In this document: piece by piece, positions 444 through 22,955 of the stretch
Numbering within the stretch: the stretch's first letter is position 1
How the letters are laid out: each line of letters starts with the position of its first letter
Virus record (IMG/VR): IMGVR_UViG_3300025138_000385
Location: 1 to 22,956 of that record
DNA: 22,956 nt
Direction: 5' to 3' (one strand)
DNA from: a virus
The notes under the pieces: generated by a model
Seen by the model: only the letters and a program-made list of their open reading frames with translations
Database searches by the model: none
Told to the model about the DNA's origin: nothing
Position numbers and translations under genes: made by a program

Positions 444-3072
444 TGATATCAAACTTGTTATAGACGTTGATGATAGGTCTGTAATTAAGTCCATAAAAAA
501 CCAAGAAAAACTTGAAAAAGAGATAATGGACACCGCCAAGGGTTTAAAGAGACTTAAAGACGCTCTGGCTACTGGTATGATAAGTCAGTCTAAGTTTGAT
601 AAAGGTACTGCACAAGTTAATAGCAGAATAAGTCACCTTACTAAAACTTTATATTCTGGTGCAGGGGCCATAGACCAGTGGGCTACACACGTAAACCAAG
701 CCAAGAATAAGACTAATAGGTTTGGTATGGTAGCACAACAAGTAGGTTATCAGGTTGGTGACTTCTTTGTACAGGTACAATCAGGTACTAGCGCACTTGT
801 AGCCTTTGGTCAACAGGGTACTCAGCTTGCTGGACTACTTCCCGGCGTTGCTGGTGCTGTTGTAGGTATTGGTATGTCGTTAGGCACCATGCTCCTTAAG
901 ACATTCCTAGACACCAGAGACGCAGGTAAACAACTTGAAGAAAGCGTAAAGGCTGTTGAGGAAGCACTATCTGACCTAAGTAATGTCTCTTCTATGCTAC
1001 GGGATACACTAGGCGCACCCTTTAGTGAGGCTAATACTGTACTAAGAGAGTACTTGGAACTACTTGAGAAATCTTCTGCTGCAAATGTACAAAAACAAGT
1101 ATCCTTGGCCTTTGGTGCAAAAGGTGAGTCAACTGGTATTTTAAACGAACTAGCCCTCATGGCTGAAGATATGACAGAGCCACCTTGGTGGGCAGGAGAA
1201 AAGTTCGGTGGTTCTAAAAAGGAAATTGAAGATGCCAACGAACTTCTAAGAGTCAGAGGGGAGATTGCAGAAATACTACGTGGTACGGCTGAACAACCTC
1301 GTATTATAGAAGGAACAGAAGGTCTTAGAGAACTAGGCGATGACCTACTTGCGTACTCTAAGAAGTTTAATGGGGCATTAGGGGAAAGAATTAGAACCCT
1401 GATGTTTGAAGCGGGTCTGACCAAACTTATGGTTGACGATGAAAAGGCTAAGGGTGATGCTGCTAATGATGCCTTAGAAAAACACGCTACCGAAATGGAA
1501 GCCTTCTATGATATGATTGCCAAAGAAGACAAAGACGAGGCAAAACGTAAGTCAGACCTTATGAAGAAGCAATGGGATGCTTTATACAAAAACAGAATGG
1601 AAGCTAAAAAAGCTGCTGAGGAGGCGTCCAAGAGAGAAGCAACAGCAATAGCCAGTTCAAAAGTACAAATTGAACAAGCAAGTGTAAGGCAAGCACTACA
1701 AGAAGCTGAATTACAGTACGGATCAAAGTCAATAGAGCATAGAGAGGCTCAAGTAAAAGCTGCTAAAGAACTAGCAAGAATTACTGCGGAGCAAAAGTTT
1801 ATAGCTGACGGTATTACTGACGCAGAACAAGATCAGATAGACCTGTTAGTAGAGGCTGCTGGTGAAGCAGAGGTTATGAGGCAAGCCTTAGCGGATTCTA
1901 AGATAGAAGCAGGAGGTTTAGCAAAGAACTTAAGGTCTGCGGTAAGCGCCCTTAACAGCCTTATGGGCCTAGGGGATAGTATTGACAAAGCTATAGCTGT
2001 TGCACAAGTTCGTCTAGGAACCTTGCAAATCACTGGTGACTCTAAAATGGCGGATATAGCTGCTGGGATAGAGGGTCAACGCCAAGACCTACAGAAGTTC
2101 TACGACAAAGCCTTTGAAGGTCTGAGTGCTGGAACCCCTGAGTTTAGCAAGTTGGTTGACGAACGGTTCGAAGCTAATCAGAAATTGTATGCGTTGGAGG
2201 GCTATCTAGAACTTATTGAAGAAGAGAACGATAGAATAAAAGAGTCGAATAAGTCTGGTCGTAAAGGCAAGAAAAAACCGGGCCTAATTATGACAGAAGA
2301 ACTCTTTGCTATGAAGCAGAAGCTAGACTTACAAACGGCAAGCTTAGGTAAGAGCGAAGAAGAGATTCTGTTTGAACAGAATAAGTCTCAACTGTTGTCA
2401 AAGATCACTGATCAAATGGTTGGCATGAGTGAGGTTGATAAAGCCTTCTACATACAGCAAGCAGAAGGTGCAGCAGAGTACATAACTAATAAACAACTTG
2501 AACTGATCGCACTTCAAGAGATTGAACAACAACAGGAGAAAGTAGCAGACACCATAGCTAACAGTATGGGCAATGCCTTAATGTCTATGGTTGATGGTAC
2601 TAAGTCCGTTAAAGATGCCTTTAAATCTATGGCTAGTGATATTATAAAGGATTTATATAGGATACTTGTAGTAGAACAAATGGTGAAATCAATTAAGACT
2701 GCAACACTTGGTTTCTTTGAAGATGGCGGTGTTTTTCAAGGTGGTTCCCAAGTACAAGCATATGCTGATGGTGGTGTCGTAGGCTCTCCAACTACCTTCC
2801 CTATGGCTGGTGGTCGTACAGGACTAATGGGAGAGGCTGGCCCAGAAGCTATTATGCCACTCAAGCGTGGTGCCAATGGTAAGCTAGGGGTACAGGCAGA
2901 GGGTGGTGCTGGTGACGTTGTAATTCATCAGAACTTTAACTTTACAGCTAATGGTGACGAGAGTGTTAAGAAACTTATTGCACAGGCTGCACCACAGATT
3001 GCTAGTATGACTAAGAGTTCTATCATTAGTGATCGTCGCCGTGGTGGACAAATGAAAGCAACCTTCGGGTAA
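436..3072 (+). CDS. Tail tape measure protein
   Basis: This 878-residue protein fixes tail length and is threaded through the tail tube of long-tailed phages. The N-terminal ~100 residues and residues ~340-660 are charged and coiled-coil-like, with many Lys/Glu/Gln. Residues ~118-157 form a hydrophobic Gly/Ala-rich stretch typical of the membrane-active part of tape measures. Near the C-terminus is the usual glycine-rich tail with GLMGEAGPEAIMPLKRG, a hallmark of the family. It is the largest gene after the chaperone frame, as in lambda gpH. By the rule of about 0.15 nm per residue the tail would be near 130 nm, a rough inference. No lysozyme or peptidase domain is evident. The ATG overlaps the preceding stop. 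Confidence 0.93.
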   Translation: MADDIKLVIDVDDRSVIKSIKNQEKLEKEIMDTAKGLKRLKDALATGMISQSKFDKGTAQVNSRISHLTKTLYSGAGAIDQWATHVNQAKNKTNRFGMVAQQVGYQVGDFFVQVQSGTSALVAFGQQGTQLAGLLPGVAGAVVGIGMSLGTMLLKTFLDTRDAGKQLEESVKAVEEALSDLSNVSSMLRDTLGAPFSEANTVLREYLELLEKSSAANVQKQVSLAFGAKGESTGILNELALMAEDMTEPPWWAGEKFGGSKKEIEDANELLRVRGEIAEILRGTAEQPRIIEGTEGLRELGDDLLAYSKKFNGALGERIRTLMFEAGLTKLMVDDEKAKGDAANDALEKHATEMEAFYDMIAKEDKDEAKRKSDLMKKQWDALYKNRMEAKKAAEEASKREATAIASSKVQIEQASVRQALQEAELQYGSKSIEHREAQVKAAKELARITAEQKFIADGITDAEQDQIDLLVEAAGEAEVMRQALADSKIEAGGLAKNLRSAVSALNSLMGLGDSIDKAIAVAQVRLGTLQITGDSKMADIAAGIEGQRQDLQKFYDKAFEGLSAGTPEFSKLVDERFEANQKLYALEGYLELIEEENDRIKESNKSGRKGKKKPGLIMTEELFAMKQKLDLQTASLGKSEEEILFEQNKSQLLSKITDQMVGMSEVDKAFYIQQAEGAAEYITNKQLELIALQEIEQQQEKVADTIANSMGNALMSMVDGTKSVKDAFKSMASDIIKDLYRILVVEQMVKSIKTATLGFFEDGGVFQGGSQVQAYADGGVVGSPTTFPMAGGRTGLMGEAGPEAIMPLKRGANGKLGVQAEGGAGDVVIHQNFNFTANGDESVKKLIAQAAPQIASMTKSSIISDRRRGGQMKATFG

Positions 3073-3086
3073 AGGAAGTATAACAG

Positions 3087-3674
3087 ATGGCACTGACGTA
3101 CCCACTAAGTACACCAACTACTATCGGGATTGAAAGTATTGAGTTACGTGCAGTCAATGCAGTAGCTACCTCTCAGTCTCCCTTCACGTATAAACAACAG
3201 ACTGTAGTACATGGTGGTCAAAGGTGGGAAGCCTCAGTTACTATACCATCAACAAGACGTGATCTAGCTGCTGAGTGGAAAGCTATGCTAGTAGGTCTTA
3301 GGGGTTCACAAGGGACATTCCTATTAGGTGATCCTGACTATGCTACACCAAGGGGTGATGTTAGTTCTTGTGTCGTAACTGGTACGGTTGGTGCTGACTC
3401 TGCTACTGTAGTTATGACAGGTACCCTTAAGGCTGGTGATTACATACAACTTGGGTCAGGGTCTACCTCTAAACTCTACCAAGTGTTGTTAGACCAAACA
3501 GGTGATGGTACAATACAGATATGGCCTTCACTTAGAAGTGCACACACAAGTTCCACAGCAGTGTTAAGTTCCCCTAAAGGGGTCTTTAGGTTGTTAGAGA
3601 ATGTAACCTCTTGGTCAATAAATAATGCTTCCGCTTACGGTATATCTTTTGAAGCTGTAGAAGTTATTTTATAA
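3087..3674 (+). CDS. Minor tail / tail-tip protein (M-like position)
   Basis: This 195-residue, beta-rich protein lies directly after the tape measure, where lambda places gpM and other siphophages place the distal tail protein. It begins MALTYPLSTPTTIGIESIEL and contains a segment on replacing or measuring the array (GQRWEASVTIPSTRR, GSQGTFLLGDPDYATPRG) of the type seen in small tail-tip proteins. The GTGTVGAD…GTLKAGDYIQL part (residues ~90-125) looks like a small inserted beta domain. No membrane segment or cysteine cluster is seen. The ATG is preceded by AAAGGAAG. The role in tail-tip assembly is from position and style of sequence, not a firm family match. Confidence 0.7.
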   Translation: MALTYPLSTPTTIGIESIELRAVNAVATSQSPFTYKQQTVVHGGQRWEASVTIPSTRRDLAAEWKAMLVGLRGSQGTFLLGDPDYATPRGDVSSCVVTGTVGADSATVVMTGTLKAGDYIQLGSGSTSKLYQVLLDQTGDGTIQIWPSLRSAHTSSTAVLSSPKGVFRLLENVTSWSINNASAYGISFEAVEVIL

Positions 3675-3683
3675 GGAAATACT

Positions 3684-4250
3684 ATGTCCAACTATGGCTC
3701 AAGAGACCTGACAGCTACGACAGACACTAACATAAATGCAGATACGGTTTACCCTTTCTTTGCTGTTGAACTTATTTTTGACACTGCTGCTCTTCGTATG
3801 TGGACAGGACAAGGCACTCTTCCTATATCCCCTACAGTAACGTACACTGGTGTAGGTAGCGTACTAAACATCTCAACCATTGAAGAGACCTCTGAGTTAG
3901 GCGTAAAGGGGGCTAACATAACTCTTAGTGGGGTATCTGACCCAGCCCTAGGCTTGGCACTCAGTGAGCCTTATCAGGGTCGTGTAGCTAATATCTACTT
4001 CGGTACTACTAGCGCACCAACCGAACTAAACTCAATATTCTCAGGTTACATGGATCAGATGAATATATCTGAGTCTGCTGAGACATCAAACATAGAACTC
4101 CTAGTGGAGAACAAGCTGATTGATCTTGAAAGGGCTAGGGTTTCCCGGTTTACATCTGGCTATCAGAAGTCTGTGTACCCTGCAGATTTAGGCTTAGACT
4201 TTATAGAAGATATGCAAGATAAAGATACATTGTGGGGTCGAACCAGATGA
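3684..4250 (+). CDS. Tail-tip protein (L / DUF2163-like)
   Basis: This 188-residue protein follows the M-like gene and precedes the central fibre, the place of lambda gpL or of DUF2163-type hub proteins of gene transfer agents. Features fitting that group are an opening segment on 'FFAVELIFDTAALRMWTG', a middle 'ITLSGVSDPALGLALSEPYQ', and a C-terminal 'DLGLDFIEDMQDKDTLWG' close to the usual ending of such proteins. It lacks cysteines, so the iron-sulfur cluster known from lambda gpL is absent. The start has AAGGAAATACT ahead of the ATG. Its stop overlaps the next gene's likely ATG (ATGA). Family placement is moderate. Confidence 0.68.
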   Translation: MSNYGSRDLTATTDTNINADTVYPFFAVELIFDTAALRMWTGQGTLPISPTVTYTGVGSVLNISTIEETSELGVKGANITLSGVSDPALGLALSEPYQGRVANIYFGTTSAPTELNSIFSGYMDQMNISESAETSNIELLVENKLIDLERARVSRFTSGYQKSVYPADLGLDFIEDMQDKDTLWGRTR

Positions 4251-7665: not shown

Positions 7666-8687
7666 TGTCGCAATATTCTTTTAGTGGCAACACTGTCGTA
7701 AACCAAAGTTTCCCAGATACTAGGACAGCTTTAAACTCTGCGTATGCGGCCTTAGCTTCTAACTCTAGTGGGGACAACGACCCTACTTCAGTAGCTGGTG
7801 GTAGCCTATCCACAGTACAGCATCAGTGGTGGTACGACAGTACTAACAACAAACTAATGCTTAGGAATGACGCCAATAATGCTTGGATAGAGATAGCGAC
7901 TATAGATGAAACCTCTGGTAATGTGTTGTCTATTACTACTCAGGGATTAACTCTTGGTGCTACAGCACTAACCGCCACAGGCGCAGAAATAAATAAGTTA
8001 TCTGGTGCAACTGTCAGTACTACTGAACTTAACCAACTTGATGCTATTACTAGGGGGTCTATCCTTTACGGTAATGCCTCTGGTGCTACTGCTCGGTTAG
8101 CTAAAGGTGCAGCCGATACAGTTCTTACCTCAGATGGTACAGACATTAGCTGGCAAGCTGCATCTTCTGGTGGTGGTGGCCGCACTTTAATCTCAACTAC
8201 CACTATATCCGACGATGCTAATGTACTAATTGAGGGTCTGGATAGCACTTATGGCCACTATCAATTTGTTATATCAGACTACTTGAATGCAACTGGCAAT
8301 AATAGTGGCTTACTTCTGCGTTATAAGTCGGGCGGGTCCGTAGATACGGGCACAAATTACAAGTATACGAATATAAGAACGATAGAGAGCTCATCCAGCA
8401 TAACCATCTATAATGTAAATTCAAGTTATATTGAATTAAACAAATATAATGCTACTGCAGCACCAGAAGCATCGCTAATTGTATTTGATATTTTTAACGC
8501 CGGGGACGGTACAAACAATACCACAGGGTTCTCAATGTCCATAAGCCCCAACTCTGCTACCCTTGGGTTTACCGTTTTTCGCAACACCTTTGTCTACGAG
8601 CCTGCCACAGCAGTTACAGGCGTCCAGTTTGTAGGAAGTTCCGGAAACATGGGGTCAGGAACAATTAAACTTTACGGTATAAGTTAG
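7665..8687 (+). CDS. Distal tail fibre protein
   Basis: This 340-residue protein starts on a TAATG overlap with the J-like stop and has AAGGA about 9 nt upstream. The N-terminal half contains the recurring marine-phage fibre pattern: WWYDSTNNKLMLRN, LTATGAEINKLSGATVSTTE, LNQLDAITRGSILYGNASGA and VLTSDGTDISWQA. A glycine-rich hinge (SGGGGRTL, residues ~166-173) leads to a beta-rich C-terminal domain ending in SGTIKLYGIS, a common terminal module of fibres. The C-terminal half uses different codons and fewer of the phage's favoured repeats, which suggests module exchange. Likely receptor binding; which domain binds is inference. Confidence 0.82.
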   Translation: MSQYSFSGNTVVNQSFPDTRTALNSAYAALASNSSGDNDPTSVAGGSLSTVQHQWWYDSTNNKLMLRNDANNAWIEIATIDETSGNVLSITTQGLTLGATALTATGAEINKLSGATVSTTELNQLDAITRGSILYGNASGATARLAKGAADTVLTSDGTDISWQAASSGGGGRTLISTTTISDDANVLIEGLDSTYGHYQFVISDYLNATGNNSGLLLRYKSGGSVDTGTNYKYTNIRTIESSSSITIYNVNSSYIELNKYNATAAPEASLIVFDIFNAGDGTNNTTGFSMSISPNSATLGFTVFRNTFVYEPATAVTGVQFVGSSGNMGSGTIKLYGIS

Positions 8688-11441: not shown

Positions 11442-11565
11442 TGTCACCTCTTATAAGTTTAGCCTGTTCTTTTATTAGTTCTTGTTGTCGTTCTAGTTCA
11501 AGGTATTGCTTGTCTACCTCAGATAACTCTTTGGGGGCAGGATTAAGTTTAACAACATCCCCCAT
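11434..11565 (-). CDS. Small helical charged protein (43 aa), unknown
   Basis: ATG at 11565-11563 opens a 43-residue frame ending in TAA at 11436-11434. The start is fused to the preceding gene's TGA (TGATG), and AAGGAG lies 8 nt ahead, a strong ribosome site. The product is highly charged and helical (LSEVDKQYLELERQQELIKE) with no membrane segment. The stop overlaps the DUF3310 start by 8 nt. The run of overlaps on either side is good evidence it is real. No family recognised; a regulatory or partner role to DUF3310 is only a guess. Confidence 0.65.
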   Translation of the reverse strand: MGDVVKLNPAPKELSEVDKQYLELERQQELIKEQAKLIRGDNG

Positions 11566-17554: not shown

Positions 17555-17729
17555 CCTCTTTTTCTAGGGCCACTGCCTTAATGTAAGTCCAGCCCCCTGC
17601 CACTGTAGCCTCGCTGTATAAGTATGCAAGATTCTCAAGAGTGTCTACATTGTGACGCTCAATAGTAGTCTTACTTTCGTACCCATCTACCTCTTCCGAG
17701 GTTTCAAAGATGATGGTGGCTTTAGTCAT
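17526..17729 (-). CDS. Hypothetical protein (67 aa)
   Basis: A small acidic protein starting on a TAATG overlap with the ssDNA-binding gene. It contains alternating beta-like strands (TKATIIFETSEEV, KTTIERHNVDTLENLAYLYS) and ends DETIVWSDI. No known motif or membrane segment. Its place between the ssDNA-binding and exonuclease genes points to replication, but the role is not known. Confidence 0.6.
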   Translation of the reverse strand: MTKATIIFETSEEVDGYESKTTIERHNVDTLENLAYLYSEATVAGGWTYIKAVALEKEDETIVWSDI

Positions 17730-18241
17730 TAGAAAGCACTCCCGTCTGACGCTTCGTATGGTACGTGTTCAACAACCTTAACTGCTTCTAAGGTAGTCAA
17801 CTTACCGTCCCATACATCTAGCTTTGCTACAACCTTACTACCGTTACCAATAAGACCGTCAGCCTCAAAGTCCCAATCAACTAGAACACCGTCAGCATCT
17901 TCTTTAAGGACACGGGGTGGTCCCATTACTACACCATATTCCCCTGTGTTCTGATCCTTGAACTTAGGGTTAAAGTGTCCTCGTCTTGCTGAGAAGTATT
18001 CCGTACCTTCCTGATCCTCCTTGAACAACTGCGCTTGCATACCCTTGTTAGGTACACCATCAGATACCATCTTTTTCTTAGTATCCTTATCAAGCATTAG
18101 CTGCACAGTGTAGCGTCCCTGTACCTCATCAATCTTGTTTCGTGCATCAGAACCTTCCTGCATGTTTTTACCCATGTCTCGGTCTTCTTCACGCAACTTA
18201 GCCCAATTAACTGGACACTCAACGTAAACTTTCTTTCCCAT
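17729..18241 (-). CDS. ssDNA-binding protein, T7 gp2.5-like
   Basis: The 170-residue protein has the pattern of T7-like ssDNA-binding proteins: a basic, beta-rich OB-fold core with RYTVQLMLDKDTKKKM, QLFKEDQEG.EYFSARRGHF, and LIGNGSKVVAKLDVWDGKL (residues ~133-151), as in DUF2815/gp2.5 proteins. It ends in GSAF with a final phenylalanine, as gp2.5 ends in Phe, but lacks a long acidic tail (T7 gp2.5 has 232 residues). The protein would coat single strands during replication. It is the first gene after the 40-nt promoter-like element, with AAGGAAAGGAAC ahead of the ATG. Confidence 0.88.
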   Translation of the reverse strand: MGKKVYVECPVNWAKLREEDRDMGKNMQEGSDARNKIDEVQGRYTVQLMLDKDTKKKMVSDGVPNKGMQAQLFKEDQEGTEYFSARRGHFNPKFKDQNTGEYGVVMGPPRVLKEDADGVLVDWDFEADGLIGNGSKVVAKLDVWDGKLTTLEAVKVVEHVPYEASDGSAF

Positions 18242-18264: not shown

Positions 18265-18304
18265 GTACTTATATATAGCAACATTTTTTGTACTTACGCA
18301 ACCA
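18265..18304 (-). promoter_or_regulatory. Putative promoter, conserved 40-nt element copy 1
   Basis: Read on the minus strand, the element contains TTGCGT (-35-like), an A-rich spacer with TTG(T) and TATATA (-10-like), spaced by 18 nt. It matches a second copy at 22340-22379 in 35 of 40 bases. It lies in the only gap between the DNA polymerase and ssDNA-binding genes, about 25 nt upstream of the ssDNA-binding ATG. The GTACTTA next to the -10 is also conserved. Promoter function is inferred from position and -35/-10 resemblance. Confidence 0.78.
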
Positions 18305-18319
18305 CACACCAAAAATAAA

Positions 18320-19729
18320 TTAGTGTATGTCAGCATAACTCTTTCCGAACTGAGCATCAATGCCTAAAGGTACATTTAGTTGCAACTCATCATTTAGTCG
18401 TTCAATGCTATCGTCCATACTTATCTTCTCTTGTGTCTCCTCTCCCTCTTTTACCATACTGATAATTTCATCGTGAAACTGTCCTATCGTTAACACACCA
18501 TCTTTACGACAATGCTTGACCCAAGTATCAAAGCAGTAGACACCTGTGCCTTGATTAAGTGTACTGAATCGGTCCTTCTCACTTCGTAGGCTGTACCAGA
18601 AACCACTGACAGGGTTCTTTAGCCACATACCCCCTAGCCCCTGTGGCTCTCGTACACGTACACCCCTTGCCACGGCCTCTACGGACCAGTTACGATCCCA
18701 GAAGGCAGCAAGTAGTTTTTTAGCCTCTGACTTCTTCATGCCTGTAGTACGAGACAACGTAGCCTCTTTGACACCATACGTGGCACTGTAGTTGACCACC
18801 TTGTAGTTCTTACGCAATGACTTTAAACTGCGTTCTCCTGTGTTGTGTTTGTCTATGTCCTCTTGGCTGATGACACCAGCATGTTTAGCTAGATCAAGGT
18901 GTGGGTCAAATCCGGGCTGTGACATTTCTGCAACATAACCCGGATCAAGCGGCTGCATGTAGTGACGCTTAGTTGTATCCTCTAGGCTAGTCATATCTGC
19001 ACCACATAACACGTAACCTTCTGGGGCAATCAGGCATCCTCGTATCTCAGCACCATAGGGTTTTTCCACTGAGGGGAGGTTAACTAAAGGTTTAGCATGT
19101 TTGAACCTCATAGTGTTAGTCATACCAGCTACCCCAGCTTGTAGGTATCCATCTACCTCACACTCTAGGAACGCCTTGAGTATCCCGATTCTGTGAGTAA
19201 GAACAGAAAGACCATCCAGAATAGAAACAGCAGCATCCACACTAGCCAACTTCTTAACTGACGGGCATAGTTCCCCATCTTTCCTGACTTGTTCGATCTG
19301 TCGTTCATCACCATTGCTCTCTCTTACAAACTTAAATGTTCTAGGTTGCCATCCTATACTGAACAACCAATCCTTGATCTGGGACACCGAGTTAGGATTA
19401 CCTCGTTCTACACCTGTCTGTACAACAAAACCCTGTACCGTCTCAGGCTGCTTGTACTGCTTTCTAAGAGCCTCGAAGTTCTCCCCGTGACTGCTTAGGC
19501 TACCATCCTTACGATACATCACCTTGGGCCTGTTCTGCACCTTAGTAAGTACATGACGGGGCATAGCATTAGCTAGTTGTTCTACCTTATCCTCTTTCAT
19601 ACCCTGCCATTCAGCAAGGTGCATACTGGCTTTAGCTACATCTAATTTCCACCGTAGGGCCTCCTGTTCCCTAGCGCAGTCTAACTTGAATGTGATGTAG
19701 TCGATAAGTCTCCACGCTTCACTGTTCAT
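18320..19729 (-). CDS. Family A DNA polymerase, polymerase domain only
   Basis: This 469-residue protein has the polymerase domain of T7-type family A enzymes. Motif A: ADMTSLED (D245, E250). O-helix: R306, K310, Y314, Y318 in RKNYKVVNYSATYG. Motif C: GQFHDEII (H419, D420, E421), ending in H as in T7 gp5. A ~70-residue insert near residues 60-130 lies where the thioredoxin-binding loop of T7 gp5 occurs. The 3'-5' exonuclease is a separate gene just upstream. ATG 19729 overlaps the exonuclease stop by 11 nt in the +1 frame, with GGAGAAACT ahead, so it is translated independently. Confidence 0.95.
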   Translation of the reverse strand: MNSEAWRLIDYITFKLDCAREQEALRWKLDVAKASMHLAEWQGMKEDKVEQLANAMPRHVLTKVQNRPKVMYRKDGSLSSHGENFEALRKQYKQPETVQGFVVQTGVERGNPNSVSQIKDWLFSIGWQPRTFKFVRESNGDERQIEQVRKDGELCPSVKKLASVDAAVSILDGLSVLTHRIGILKAFLECEVDGYLQAGVAGMTNTMRFKHAKPLVNLPSVEKPYGAEIRGCLIAPEGYVLCGADMTSLEDTTKRHYMQPLDPGYVAEMSQPGFDPHLDLAKHAGVISQEDIDKHNTGERSLKSLRKNYKVVNYSATYGVKEATLSRTTGMKKSEAKKLLAAFWDRNWSVEAVARGVRVREPQGLGGMWLKNPVSGFWYSLRSEKDRFSTLNQGTGVYCFDTWVKHCRKDGVLTIGQFHDEIISMVKEGEETQEKISMDDSIERLNDELQLNVPLGIDAQFGKSYADIH

Positions 19730-20198
19730 ATAGTTTCTCCAATTTCCTCTTTAGGTCTCGCCAAAGGCGCACATTGATCTTTACATCCTCTTCACAACGA
19801 TGGGCATACTCTTCTTTAGATAACCCCTCCCAATCATCTACCTTGGGCTTAGGTACACCATACTCTTCTCCGTACACTGCCAGCCCATGCTTTGTCCTAT
19901 TGTGATGCAAGTACCAGCTTAACCCAAGTGTATCTAATAGCTTGGCATTGACCTTTATACCTAACACCTTTTCCACTGCGGGTATATCAAAGCGTACAAT
20001 GTTATGCCCAGCTAAGGCTAACGTAGGATCCATACTGTACTCCAAGAAAAAGTCCCTCATTCCATCGTAGTCAAAGATAGACCTTGGCTCATCCATAGCT
20101 GCTGTTTGATACGACAACACATGTATCTTAGTCAGCTTATCTAACAGTCCATCTGTCTCTATGTCGAATACTGTCTCTGCATCAGGTGTCATCATCAT
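19719..20198 (-). CDS. DNA polymerase 3'-5' exonuclease domain (separate gene)
   Basis: The 159-residue protein is the proofreading exonuclease part of a T7-type DNA polymerase: ExoI FDIETDG (D12, E14), ExoII GHNIVRFD (D71), ExoIII YAHRCEEDVK (Y131, D138). Together with the polymerase gene it totals 628 residues, near T7 gp5 (704), and the two meet exactly at the domain linker, so little is missing. It starts with three Met codons and overlaps the HNH stop. The proteins probably join as a complex, a point that is inferred. Confidence 0.93.
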   Translation of the reverse strand: MMMTPDAETVFDIETDGLLDKLTKIHVLSYQTAAMDEPRSIFDYDGMRDFFLEYSMDPTLALAGHNIVRFDIPAVEKVLGIKVNAKLLDTLGLSWYLHHNRTKHGLAVYGEEYGVPKPKVDDWEGLSKEEYAHRCEEDVKINVRLWRDLKRKLEKLYEQ

Positions 20199-20736
20199 AT
20201 AGCCCCACTTCTTCGTTTGTCTTTGTGAATTGTCGTTCTAGCGGTGATAACTCTTCTTTAACAAACTTATCATATGCTCTTGCAGCCTCTTCTGGAGTTT
20301 TAAAAAAACCCACATATTGTTGTTTACCGCCTTTATTTGCTCTGCAACGATACCTACCCTGTTCTATAGTCACACCTTTAAACTTACAACTACCGTAACC
20401 TAATCTGTTTCTTGAGTTAAGGCCGTTTATTGCAGGTCTTAAGTTTTCTACCCTGTTGTTAAGTTTGTCCCCATCTATATGATCTAGCATTTTAGGAACA
20501 CTACCATAGTTAAGGAACCAAACAACTCTGTGATTAAGATAGGAAAATTTTTTCCTGTCTATATAACAAGAAAAACCCATATACCCACGCCCTTTATCAC
20601 TTCCCACCAAATTCCTCGTTCTACGTCCACGTAAACTAGGGGTAGTCCATAAAAGATTTCCCGTCTCACTATCATAACGAAGATTATCTTTAAACCACTG
20701 CTTCTCTTCTTCTGACCACTCTCTTGCCTTTGGCAT
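20182..20736 (-). CDS. HNH homing endonuclease with AP2 domain
   Basis: The 184-residue protein has an HNH fold: LNHRVVWFL (H69), MLDHIDGDKLNNRVENLRPA (H86, N93, N97), followed by an AP2-type DNA-binding domain at residues ~117-162 (KFKGVTIEQGRYRCRANKGG, YVGFFKTPEEAARAYDKF). This pairing is typical of phage free-standing or intron-borne homing endonucleases. It sits between the primase-helicase and the polymerase exonuclease. It is AT-rich (one line at 20521 counted 28% GC against 55% at 21001), consistent with separate origin. GGAG lies about 10 nt upstream of its ATG. Confidence 0.93.
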   Translation of the reverse strand: MPKAREWSEEEKQWFKDNLRYDSETGNLLWTTPSLRGRRTRNLVGSDKGRGYMGFSCYIDRKKFSYLNHRVVWFLNYGSVPKMLDHIDGDKLNNRVENLRPAINGLNSRNRLGYGSCKFKGVTIEQGRYRCRANKGGKQQYVGFFKTPEEAARAYDKFVKEELSPLERQFTKTNEEVGLYDDDT

Positions 20737-20738
20737 TA

Positions 20739-22307
20739 TTAGTACTCCTGCTTTAGTGTGAACGTATCACTGTTAAACTTCATTCTGCCAGCCCGTCCTT
20801 CTTCACTGCAAGGGCGGTTTTTTTGTACCGTGATGTATGTTGTGTTTCTCTCATCAAGGTCTTCCGCTTCTTTATCCCTAGACAGATCAATGATAACACT
20901 GGCACGTTGTCCTATCATCTTACAATACTTAGGGTCTCCGTCTTCATTAGTGTGCGCGATAGTAACAATGCCCACATTTAGTTCCGCTGATAGCTTAGAC
21001 AGCCTTACGGACAGGTCAGCCAGTAACTCCTCCTTAGACGCCTCTGATCGTCCAGACACAACGTCTTGGATAGGCTCAAAGAACACATACTTACATCCAC
21101 ATGCCTGACTGAAGAAACGTATCTGATCACACAGTTCATCAGTACCTTGACCATCACCTAAGTAGAACTGATAGAAGTTCTCGTCCCTAGTGACACTCTT
21201 AATTGCTTCTATGACATCCTCATTCCTTCCCTTCTCATCAATCAAGTCGCGTCTAGTTAGGTTATCTTGTAACTCATACGACACAAGCCCAAGTAGTGAC
21301 CTTAGTTTAGTCTCTTCTAGGTGCCATGCAGCAATAGGAACCTTACGCTGTAGCATGTTGTATTCCAAGTATCGCATAACCTCAGTCTTGCCTATGCCAG
21401 TAGGTGCCTTAATCACTGTGAAGTGACCCTGCATAAGCCCCATAATCTTATCATCTAAGTCAGTGATACCTGTAGGAACATATACATGGTCTGGTGTATC
21501 CCGATATAACGACAAGAACTGGTCAGCAGTGTTTAGAATGTTTTCTGGCGTATACTTAGCAGCGTTCCACCATGCACTTTTGAACTCCGCATGTGCATTA
21601 TCCTGTAGGAACTCATTAGCATCCTTATACTTGTCATGTGGTACTCGGTACACCTTGTTAGGAAACAACTTAGCCACCCGATCAGCTAAGGCATTACCAG
21701 TATCATCATTATCTACTGACAACACAATCTTCTGGAAACTATCTAGCCACTCCTTACAATTCTCCCACAGCTTCTTAGATGGCGCACCAGAGGGTAATGA
21801 TACAACAGGATTAATGTACTGACTCTTCATCATCTGTGCTACTGATAAGGCGTCTAGTTCCCCCTCAGTAATGGTTACAGTCTTAGAACAACCAGCGGTA
21901 AACATATTCATACCAAACAGTTCATCCCCCTTGAACCCGTCCTTAGTATAGAAACCTTTCTCATGCAGGGTACGGACTTTAATTCCACCGCTGGGGTATA
22001 TGTACTCTTGGCGACCATCATATGTCTTAACATTGAAGTCCTCCATAGTACGGGCATTAATCCCTCGGAGGGGTGTATAACGACCATCACCAGCGGTCTC
22101 TATCCTCTTAGGTGTAAACGACATAATATTTTCCTTTTCTGCTAGTGGGTACTTGTCTCTGGCCCACTCAAAGGTATCACCAGTTTTACTTGGATACGAC
22201 TTAAGACAAGAGTGACAACGACCAAACCCATCTGTGTTATAACTGAAAGCATCAGACGATCCACAATCAATATATGGACATGGTTGATGTACTCTTTCTT
22301 TATTCAT
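20739..22307 (-). CDS. Primase-helicase (T7 gp4-like)
   Basis: The 522-residue protein unwinds DNA and makes primers at the fork. The zinc-binding part uses C10, C15, C31 and C34 (CPYIDC ... CHSC). The TOPRIM core includes TEGELD (E148) and VDNDDTG (D199, D201). The helicase has Walker A APTGIGKT (301-308) and a Walker B-like VFFEPIQD, then the H-motif IVTIAHTNED. An internal in-frame ATG (M62, 22124) has its own ribosome site and would make a helicase-only form as T7 4B does. It starts 33 nt downstream of the second 40-nt promoter-like element. Confidence 0.95.
   Translation of the reverse strand: MNKERVHQPCPYIDCGSSDAFSYNTDGFGRCHSCLKSYPSKTGDTFEWARDKYPLAEKENIMSFTPKRIETAGDGRYTPLRGINARTMEDFNVKTYDGRQEYIYPSGGIKVRTLHEKGFYTKDGFKGDELFGMNMFTAGCSKTVTITEGELDALSVAQMMKSQYINPVVSLPSGAPSKKLWENCKEWLDSFQKIVLSVDNDDTGNALADRVAKLFPNKVYRVPHDKYKDANEFLQDNAHAEFKSAWWNAAKYTPENILNTADQFLSLYRDTPDHVYVPTGITDLDDKIMGLMQGHFTVIKAPTGIGKTEVMRYLEYNMLQRKVPIAAWHLEETKLRSLLGLVSYELQDNLTRRDLIDEKGRNEDVIEAIKSVTRDENFYQFYLGDGQGTDELCDQIRFFSQACGCKYVFFEPIQDVVSGRSEASKEELLADLSVRLSKLSAELNVGIVTIAHTNEDGDPKYCKMIGQRASVIIDLSRDKEAEDLDERNTTYITVQKNRPCSEEGRAGRMKFNSDTFTLKQEY
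22122..22140 (-). promoter_or_regulatory. Internal translation start for helicase-only form
   Basis: Within the primase-helicase gene, ATG at 22124-22122 (codon 62) is preceded by AAAAGGAAA with the GG eight nt upstream of the ATG. T7 gene 4 makes 4B from internal Met64 in the same way. The codon follows the zinc-binding part directly, so a product from here loses only the zinc domain. Confidence 0.65.
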
Positions 22308-22339
22308 ATTATTATTTCCTTTTCCTAAGTAAGACCTCT

Positions 22340-22379
22340 GTACTTACCTATAGCAACATTTTTTGACTTTACGCAACCA
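22340..22379 (-). promoter_or_regulatory. Putative promoter, conserved 40-nt element copy 2
   Basis: On the minus strand the sequence again has TTGCGT, 18 nt, then TATAGG, with the same surrounding bases as copy 1 (35 of 40 identical). It lies directly after the sigma-like stop at 22386 and 33 nt before the primase-helicase ATG at 22307, in one of only two sizeable gaps of this block. AAAAGGAAA ahead of the ATG lies between element and start. Confidence 0.78.
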
Positions 22380-22385
22380 AAGCCC

Positions 22386-22955
22386 CTAAATGTTCATAGC
22401 TTCTGTGACTTTATTAACACACCTCTTCAACTTCTTCTCTATTGCTTGTCGTGTTACACGCTCAGATATAGCTATATCATCTGTTGTCTCCATTTCTAAG
22501 TAGTGCCTAGAGAACAAATCCCAATCACTGTCGTTAAGCGTCTCCCTAGATAACCTTACTATGTCAAGTACAATCTGCTTTTTCTCATACACAACAGCAG
22601 GATCAGATTCCTCATCAGCTACCTCAACACTTTCTAGTGGGGTACTGGTTGAATTGATAGCCTGTTGCAATTTTGTCACACCCCCCTTGCTCATGGTTGA
22701 CTTGTAGTCTGTACCCCTAGCCAAAGACCTAGCTGGCTCACTTAGAGGTACACTCACAGCTAGTGTCTTAATGTTTATGTAGTCGTGCATAGCCCTGTTA
22801 GCCATACGCCTTAGATTAGCCCCATGCGTGTTCCCCTTATCCACTTGTTCTAAGCACTCCAACATTCCCTCGGACACCAGATCATCAAATTGATTGGGTG
22901 AATTATACTTGTACGCAAGTGAACGACACATCTTCATCATTTCTTCAGTGTTCAT
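22386..22955 (-). CDS. Sigma-70-like RNA polymerase sigma factor
   Basis: The 189-residue protein resembles a minimal sigma factor: residues ~9-66 (YNSPNQFDDLVSEGMLECLE, then LRRMANRAMHDYI) match region 2, which binds core RNA polymerase and the -10 element, and residues ~125-187 (LNDSDWDLFSRHYLEMETTD, ISERVTRQAIEKKLKRCVNKV) match the region 4 helix-turn-helix that reads the -35. Sigma regions 1.1 and 3 are absent, as in ECF-like forms. It may direct host polymerase to phage promoters. The first Met is at the window edge, so an earlier start cannot be excluded. Confidence 0.78.
   Translation of the reverse strand: MNTEEMMKMCRSLAYKYNSPNQFDDLVSEGMLECLEQVDKGNTHGANLRRMANRAMHDYINIKTLAVSVPLSEPARSLARGTDYKSTMSKGGVTKLQQAINSTSTPLESVEVADEESDPAVVYEKKQIVLDIVRLSRETLNDSDWDLFSRHYLEMETTDDIAISERVTRQAIEKKLKRCVNKVTEAMNI

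Follow-up and report, generated by a model that had tools for sequence, protein, structure and literature searches.

Segment-by-segment co-variation of a predicted phage sigma factor and its putative promoters among close relatives of a marine phage

The 22,956-base viral fragment analysed here (IMG/VR record IMGVR_UViG_3300025138_000385, in full length referred to as the window) carries two almost identical 40-base elements ahead of replication genes on its minus strand, which raises the question of what reads them. On that strand, element 1 (18304–18265, TGGTTGCGTAAGTACAAAAAATGTTGCTATATATAAGTAC) and element 2 (22379–22340, TGGTTGCGTAAAGTCAAAAAATGTTGCTATAGGTAAGTAC) are identical at 35 of 40 positions in a pairwise comparison, while their flanks agree at only 18/60 nt upstream and 13/60 nt downstream. 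A pattern scan of the whole record that allowed three mismatches returned these two elements alone, with 0.00 matches expected from shuffled sequences. As described in a first-pass annotation of the window, both have a TTGCGT-N18-TATA layout, with a predicted −35 of TTGCGT followed by ATGTTGC-TATATA in element 1 and by ATGTTGC-TATAGG in element 2, and both aim at gene starts on the same strand: element 1 lies about 23 nt upstream of the ATG of a 170-aa ORF (17729–18241), and element 2 about 32 nt upstream of the ATG of a primase-helicase gene (20739–22307, minus strand; phrog_239, 3.8e-97). The same annotation had placed them in the only sizeable gaps of the minus-strand block, which does not quite hold, since another gap of about 117 nt (11448–11564) occurs near the block end. 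Its remark that a GTACTTA flank is conserved was right only for part of the sites: GTACTTA/TAAGTAC is kept at the primase and 170-aa sites of close relatives with any sigma type, but it is missing from a third site near the terminase genes (see below) and is therefore not a core part of the element.

Element 1 is predicted to drive the 170-aa gene, a conserved minus-strand gene without a family match, together with the downstream block of exonuclease, MazG-like, ribonucleotide reductase and PhoH-like genes that it heads, and element 2 is predicted to drive a primase-helicase/DNA polymerase block. An HNH/AP2 endonuclease ORF (20182–20736, minus strand) is situated between the primase-helicase and the polymerase-exonuclease genes and is among the few stretches where the window diverges from its near-identical relative L046. 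The DNA polymerase of the window (18320–20198, minus strand) is in two parts, a 159-aa exonuclease and a 469-aa polymerase, whereas that of Roseobacter phage CRP-6 is a single protein of 612 aa. Extra genes directly follow the primase-site element in L021 (7899–9138, with ORFs of 265 aa and 143 aa before the primase gene), L006 and L009, so that the first gene of this promoter varies among relatives.

A candidate reader is encoded next to element 2, where a previously unannotated ORF for a 189-aa protein (22386–22955, minus strand; TIGR02937, 3.2e-10) ends directly upstream of the element. Taken alone, the window protein falls slightly short of the curated cut-offs for sigma proteins (39.9 vs 42.9 and 20.6 vs 24), that of Pfam Sigma70_r2 included. 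Among 13 sampled relatives of the protein, TIGR02937 matches all 13 (best 8.4e-21), Sigma70_r2 is found in 11 (best 4e-4) and Pfam Sigma70_r4 in seven (best 4.8e-14). Its parts can be delimited as sigma2 (residues ~1–60), a variable middle (~58–90) and sigma4 (~120–187), and the AlphaFold2 model of this short protein has two confident helical domains with a weak, low-confidence middle segment (~65–105). The best matches of the model among solved structures are sigma factors, with residues 127–189 superposing on −35-binding sigma4 domains (e.g., 3vfz_A, Z 9.3, rmsd 2.2 over 62). The family profile likewise matched mostly sigma factors in the PDB, and a phmmer search of the PDB with the single window sequence gave nothing useful. 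Residues D25, L26, E29 and G30 are conserved in region 2, and both the region 2 homology and the region 4 helix-turn-helix of the sigma-70 family are present. The ORF encodes a small, ECF-like and apparently two-domain protein of the sigma-70 family, for which binding to core RNA polymerase is inferred, and it is most likely the reader of both elements. That it has no sigma3 domain is suggested by its length of 189 aa alone, given the low confidence of the modelled middle. Its middle segment is comparable to sigma-70 region 3.0, an inference from position only. No relative was detected when the sigma profile was searched against 84,980 bacterial and archaeal species genomes, and no host or prophage source is therefore seen.

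The core element pattern is present in 23 viral contigs. In line with the expectation from the first pass that a wider search would yield more copies at gene starts, relatives with a readable site share both positions of the window and have a third site on the opposite strand, about 240–290 nt upstream of a small-terminase-like gene that is followed by a terminase-like ATPase; the third site of the window itself falls outside the fragment. The closest isolate to the window is CRP-6 (MK613348, 44,927 bases, complete; host Rhodobacteraceae FZCC0042), in which a search with the window element gave no match above chance. A de novo repeat search in CRP-6 recovered an element of its own, GTTGACT...GACGTCATA, which occupies the three corresponding positions (4093–4121, 8032–8060 and 42211–42183) and is absent from the rest of the genome, even with three mismatches. 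A further, different element is present in a 36-kb relative (L062), again three times and no more. In both genomes the putative cognate promoters are found ahead of non-early gene blocks and nowhere else. Across the relatives it is the positions of the elements that are conserved and not their sequences.

Ahead of the small terminase gene, the leader contains a conserved motif, ACCATGAC...GTCATGCCGATG, located at ~830–1000 (minus strand) in L021 and at ~41980–42060 in CRP-6 (L026), and also found in L005, L008, L019, L023, L045, L052, L053 and L149. Its stem varies on both sides (CATGAC/GTCATG, CATAAC/GTTATG and CATGAT/ATCATG), and these paired changes suggest that the late transcript carries a conserved RNA hairpin, a structure predicted from the sequences; a search of Rfam with the late leader gave no match. 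Near the right end of CRP-6 (44504–44732) there is an array of short, GTGACATTTTTGCAAC-like repeats about 16 nt apart, which are possibly iterons.

Most lineages share a layout in which the −35 begins about 24 nt before the TATA. The TTGACT −35 of the CRP-6, L066 and L061 lineages is close to that of sigma-70, and the arrangement TTGCGT-N17-CTATAT in the window resembles alphaproteobacterial housekeeping promoters, so the elements could be ordinary promoters of the host housekeeping sigma-70, with the phage sigma-like protein acting elsewhere. We regard this as very improbable, given that a scan for the sigma-70 consensus (TTGACA-N16-18-TATAAT) lists neither window element at 9/12 and that the −35 sequences among relatives range widely, including GCATAA, GTTACA, GTCTAA and GTTATA. 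A host sigma factor would also have no need for the −35 and the bases flanking the −10 to track separate parts of a phage protein in genomes whose neighbouring genes are up to 99.6% identical, which is the pattern observed here.

That pattern is seen in L046, where the primase, the polymerase and the 170-aa protein are more than 99% identical to those of the window, the sigma protein is 63.5% identical and neither element is the same. At the remote site of L046, i.e., the one before the 170-aa gene, about 38 bp are replaced between flanks that are near-identical to the window. Over 40 genomes, the elements at the primase and 170-aa sites match each other much better within than between genomes (mean score 19.0 vs 9.5), and the observed match was reached in 0/20000 permutations. 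The two halves of the remote element follow different parts of the sigma protein in partial Mantel tests of the 170-aa site that controlled for the polymerase and for the other sigma blocks (n=40): the −35 follows sigma4 (r=0.51, 0/1000 permutations) and is not tied to the middle segment (271/1000), and the sequence just ahead of the −10 is associated with the middle segment (r=0.51, 0/1000) and is not tied to sigma4 (849/1000). Remote sites differ at 0.75 of 10 −35 positions when the sigma4 type is the same and at 6.0 when it is different, and a test restricted to the remote sites, with labels permuted within clades, gave 0/2000 for both halves. The truncated sigma protein of L097 has the middle type that is implied by the element on the terminase side of the same contig. 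The −35 can therefore be predicted from the sigma4 type, and the bases directly upstream of the −10 from the segment that follows sigma2.

Evidence from the primase site is weak, because sigma4, the stop codon and the −35 adjoin there and one exchange could move both; sigma4, −35 and −10 are nested at this site. Hence mosaic recombination that moves the sigma gene and the adjacent element as a single tract could in principle account for the match there without any function. Our argument instead rests on the remote sites, which are free of this linkage: the coupling is also seen 4–9 kb from the sigma gene, across conserved replication genes with up to 99.6% identity, and there are three sites per genome, which leaves a purely mosaic origin with almost no plausibility.

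Natural combinations of the sigma segments reproduce the same correspondence. L038 has the sigma2 and middle segment of the window type with another sigma4, and its ATGTTGC-TATA half is unchanged with a new −35. L046 has the sigma4 type and −35 in common with L038, with SDLSRSL in place of SEPARSL in the middle segment and AAGTTGC in place of ATGTTGC in the element. The more distant L043 also combines SDLSRSL with AAGTTGC, and both its sigma4 and its −35 (GGTTGC) resemble those of the window. In the L061–L094 clade, two middle types (KHNVARRL with TATCCC and KSWTARDV with AAGTCCC) occur with four sigma4 types, whose −35s are GTTGACTT, GTTACA, GTCTA and GCATAA, and all 8 of the 8 possible combinations (2 middle × 4 sigma4) are present at the primase site.

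The correspondence has exceptions. One 170-aa site each in L087 and L082 carries the −35 of another sigma4 type, for which contig chimerism or recent recombination could be responsible, though they remain real exceptions, and in L040/L117 and L042 the two −35s of one genome are only weakly alike. The contigs are metagenomic, the choice of anchor patterns and block limits followed inspection of the data, and shared ancestry is not fully removed from the Mantel and permutation counts. Other genes of unknown function in the early region are variable as well (L005 vs L045/L060), so that some other variable factor cannot be ruled out completely. This bears on the idea that the elements bind a different phage DNA-binding factor, such as an activator, a repressor or a replication protein, which would suit the conserved bases beyond minimal −35 and −10 boxes and the location of two sites before replication genes. 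It would not suit the bipartite layout with its fixed spacing, TATA and distance to the start codons, nor a third site that fronts structural genes instead of replication genes, nor the separate co-variation with sigma4 and the post-sigma2 segment, the parts of a sigma factor expected at just those positions. We consequently hold this idea to be highly unlikely.

A three-promoter phage regulon that is read by host core RNA polymerase together with the phage's own sigma (CDS 22386–22955) is, in our view, very probably the correct interpretation, even without mapped transcript 5′ ends, binding assays or reporter data. The first-pass suggestion of phage-specific promoters that mark two transcription units fits all of these findings, with the same lack of transcript data. 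Early genes, including that of the sigma factor, would be made first by the host holoenzyme, an inference by analogy with phage 7-11 (PMC8948821); inspection of the 3300–4100 region of L021 gave no clear early promoter of host type. The sigma gene is not driven by element 2, which is located downstream of it. The phage sigma would then steer host core RNA polymerase to two replication units, i.e., the primase-helicase/polymerase unit from one promoter and the 170-aa gene-exonuclease-ribonucleotide reductase unit from a second, and to the divergent terminase/structural unit from a third promoter that would lie off the fragment. Sigma4 is inferred to touch the −35, which begins 24 nt ahead of the TATA, and the post-sigma2 segment to touch the bases that immediately precede the −10. 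Near-identical phages appear to have swapped sigma segments together with the matching promoter halves, distant sites included. It can be proposed only tentatively, and with rather less than an even case in its favour, that promoter codes are under diversifying selection, with matched modules shuffled among co-circulating phages and re-fitted at three promoters. If so, the non-early transcription programmes of near-identical phages would be mutually unreadable, and a possible gain would be escape from reading by a competitor or from block by an anti-sigma defence.

Phage sigma factors with cognate middle or late promoters are already known from phiEco32 (gp36) and phage 7-11 (gp47); these two sigmas show a resemblance of about 15% and are regarded as independent acquisitions (PMC8948821). 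For natural modular co-recoding on the fine scale seen here, we found no report in the open-access literature, with incomplete coverage. As inferred here without transcription data, a small phage sigma reprogrammes host RNA polymerase as in those phages, with a small number of cognate promoters ahead of oppositely transcribed blocks of replication and of structural genes, and as between phiEco32 and 7-11, promoter locations are kept and sequences are not (PMC8948821). A tblastn search of a phage collection with the window sigma (E 1e-3) returned CRP-6 only, so there is no detectable sequence kinship with gp36 or gp47, and a distant one is not excluded. CRP-6 has the same replication gene order and three elements at equivalent places, and a homologous sigma-like ORF, gp14, is annotated there as a "hypothetical protein"; the papers on CRP-6 (PMC6918029) make no mention of sigma factors or promoters in their main text. 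Unlike in CRP-6, the window element does not have the sequence GTTGACT...GACGTCATA. For a group of abundant marine phages, the analysis identifies a sigma factor that had gone unnoticed, along with the full regulon predicted for it. The joint change in specificity of a regulator and the dispersed sites it recognises is an evolutionary question of long standing that becomes testable here among close relatives, and the sigma/promoter pairs are candidate orthogonal expression parts. In contrast to phiEco32 and 7-11, the switch takes place among near-identical phages, through exchange of parts within one sigma family. Promoters in which −10 and −35 have been recombined are activated by engineered chimeric ECF sigmas (Rhodius et al. 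2013, PMC3817407), and in both cases −10-reading and −35-reading domains are recombined; those chimeras were a laboratory design, whereas in the phages sigma segments and the promoter halves that fit them occur in a natural set of combinations, 2 × 4 in one clade, with three genomic promoters changed per phage.
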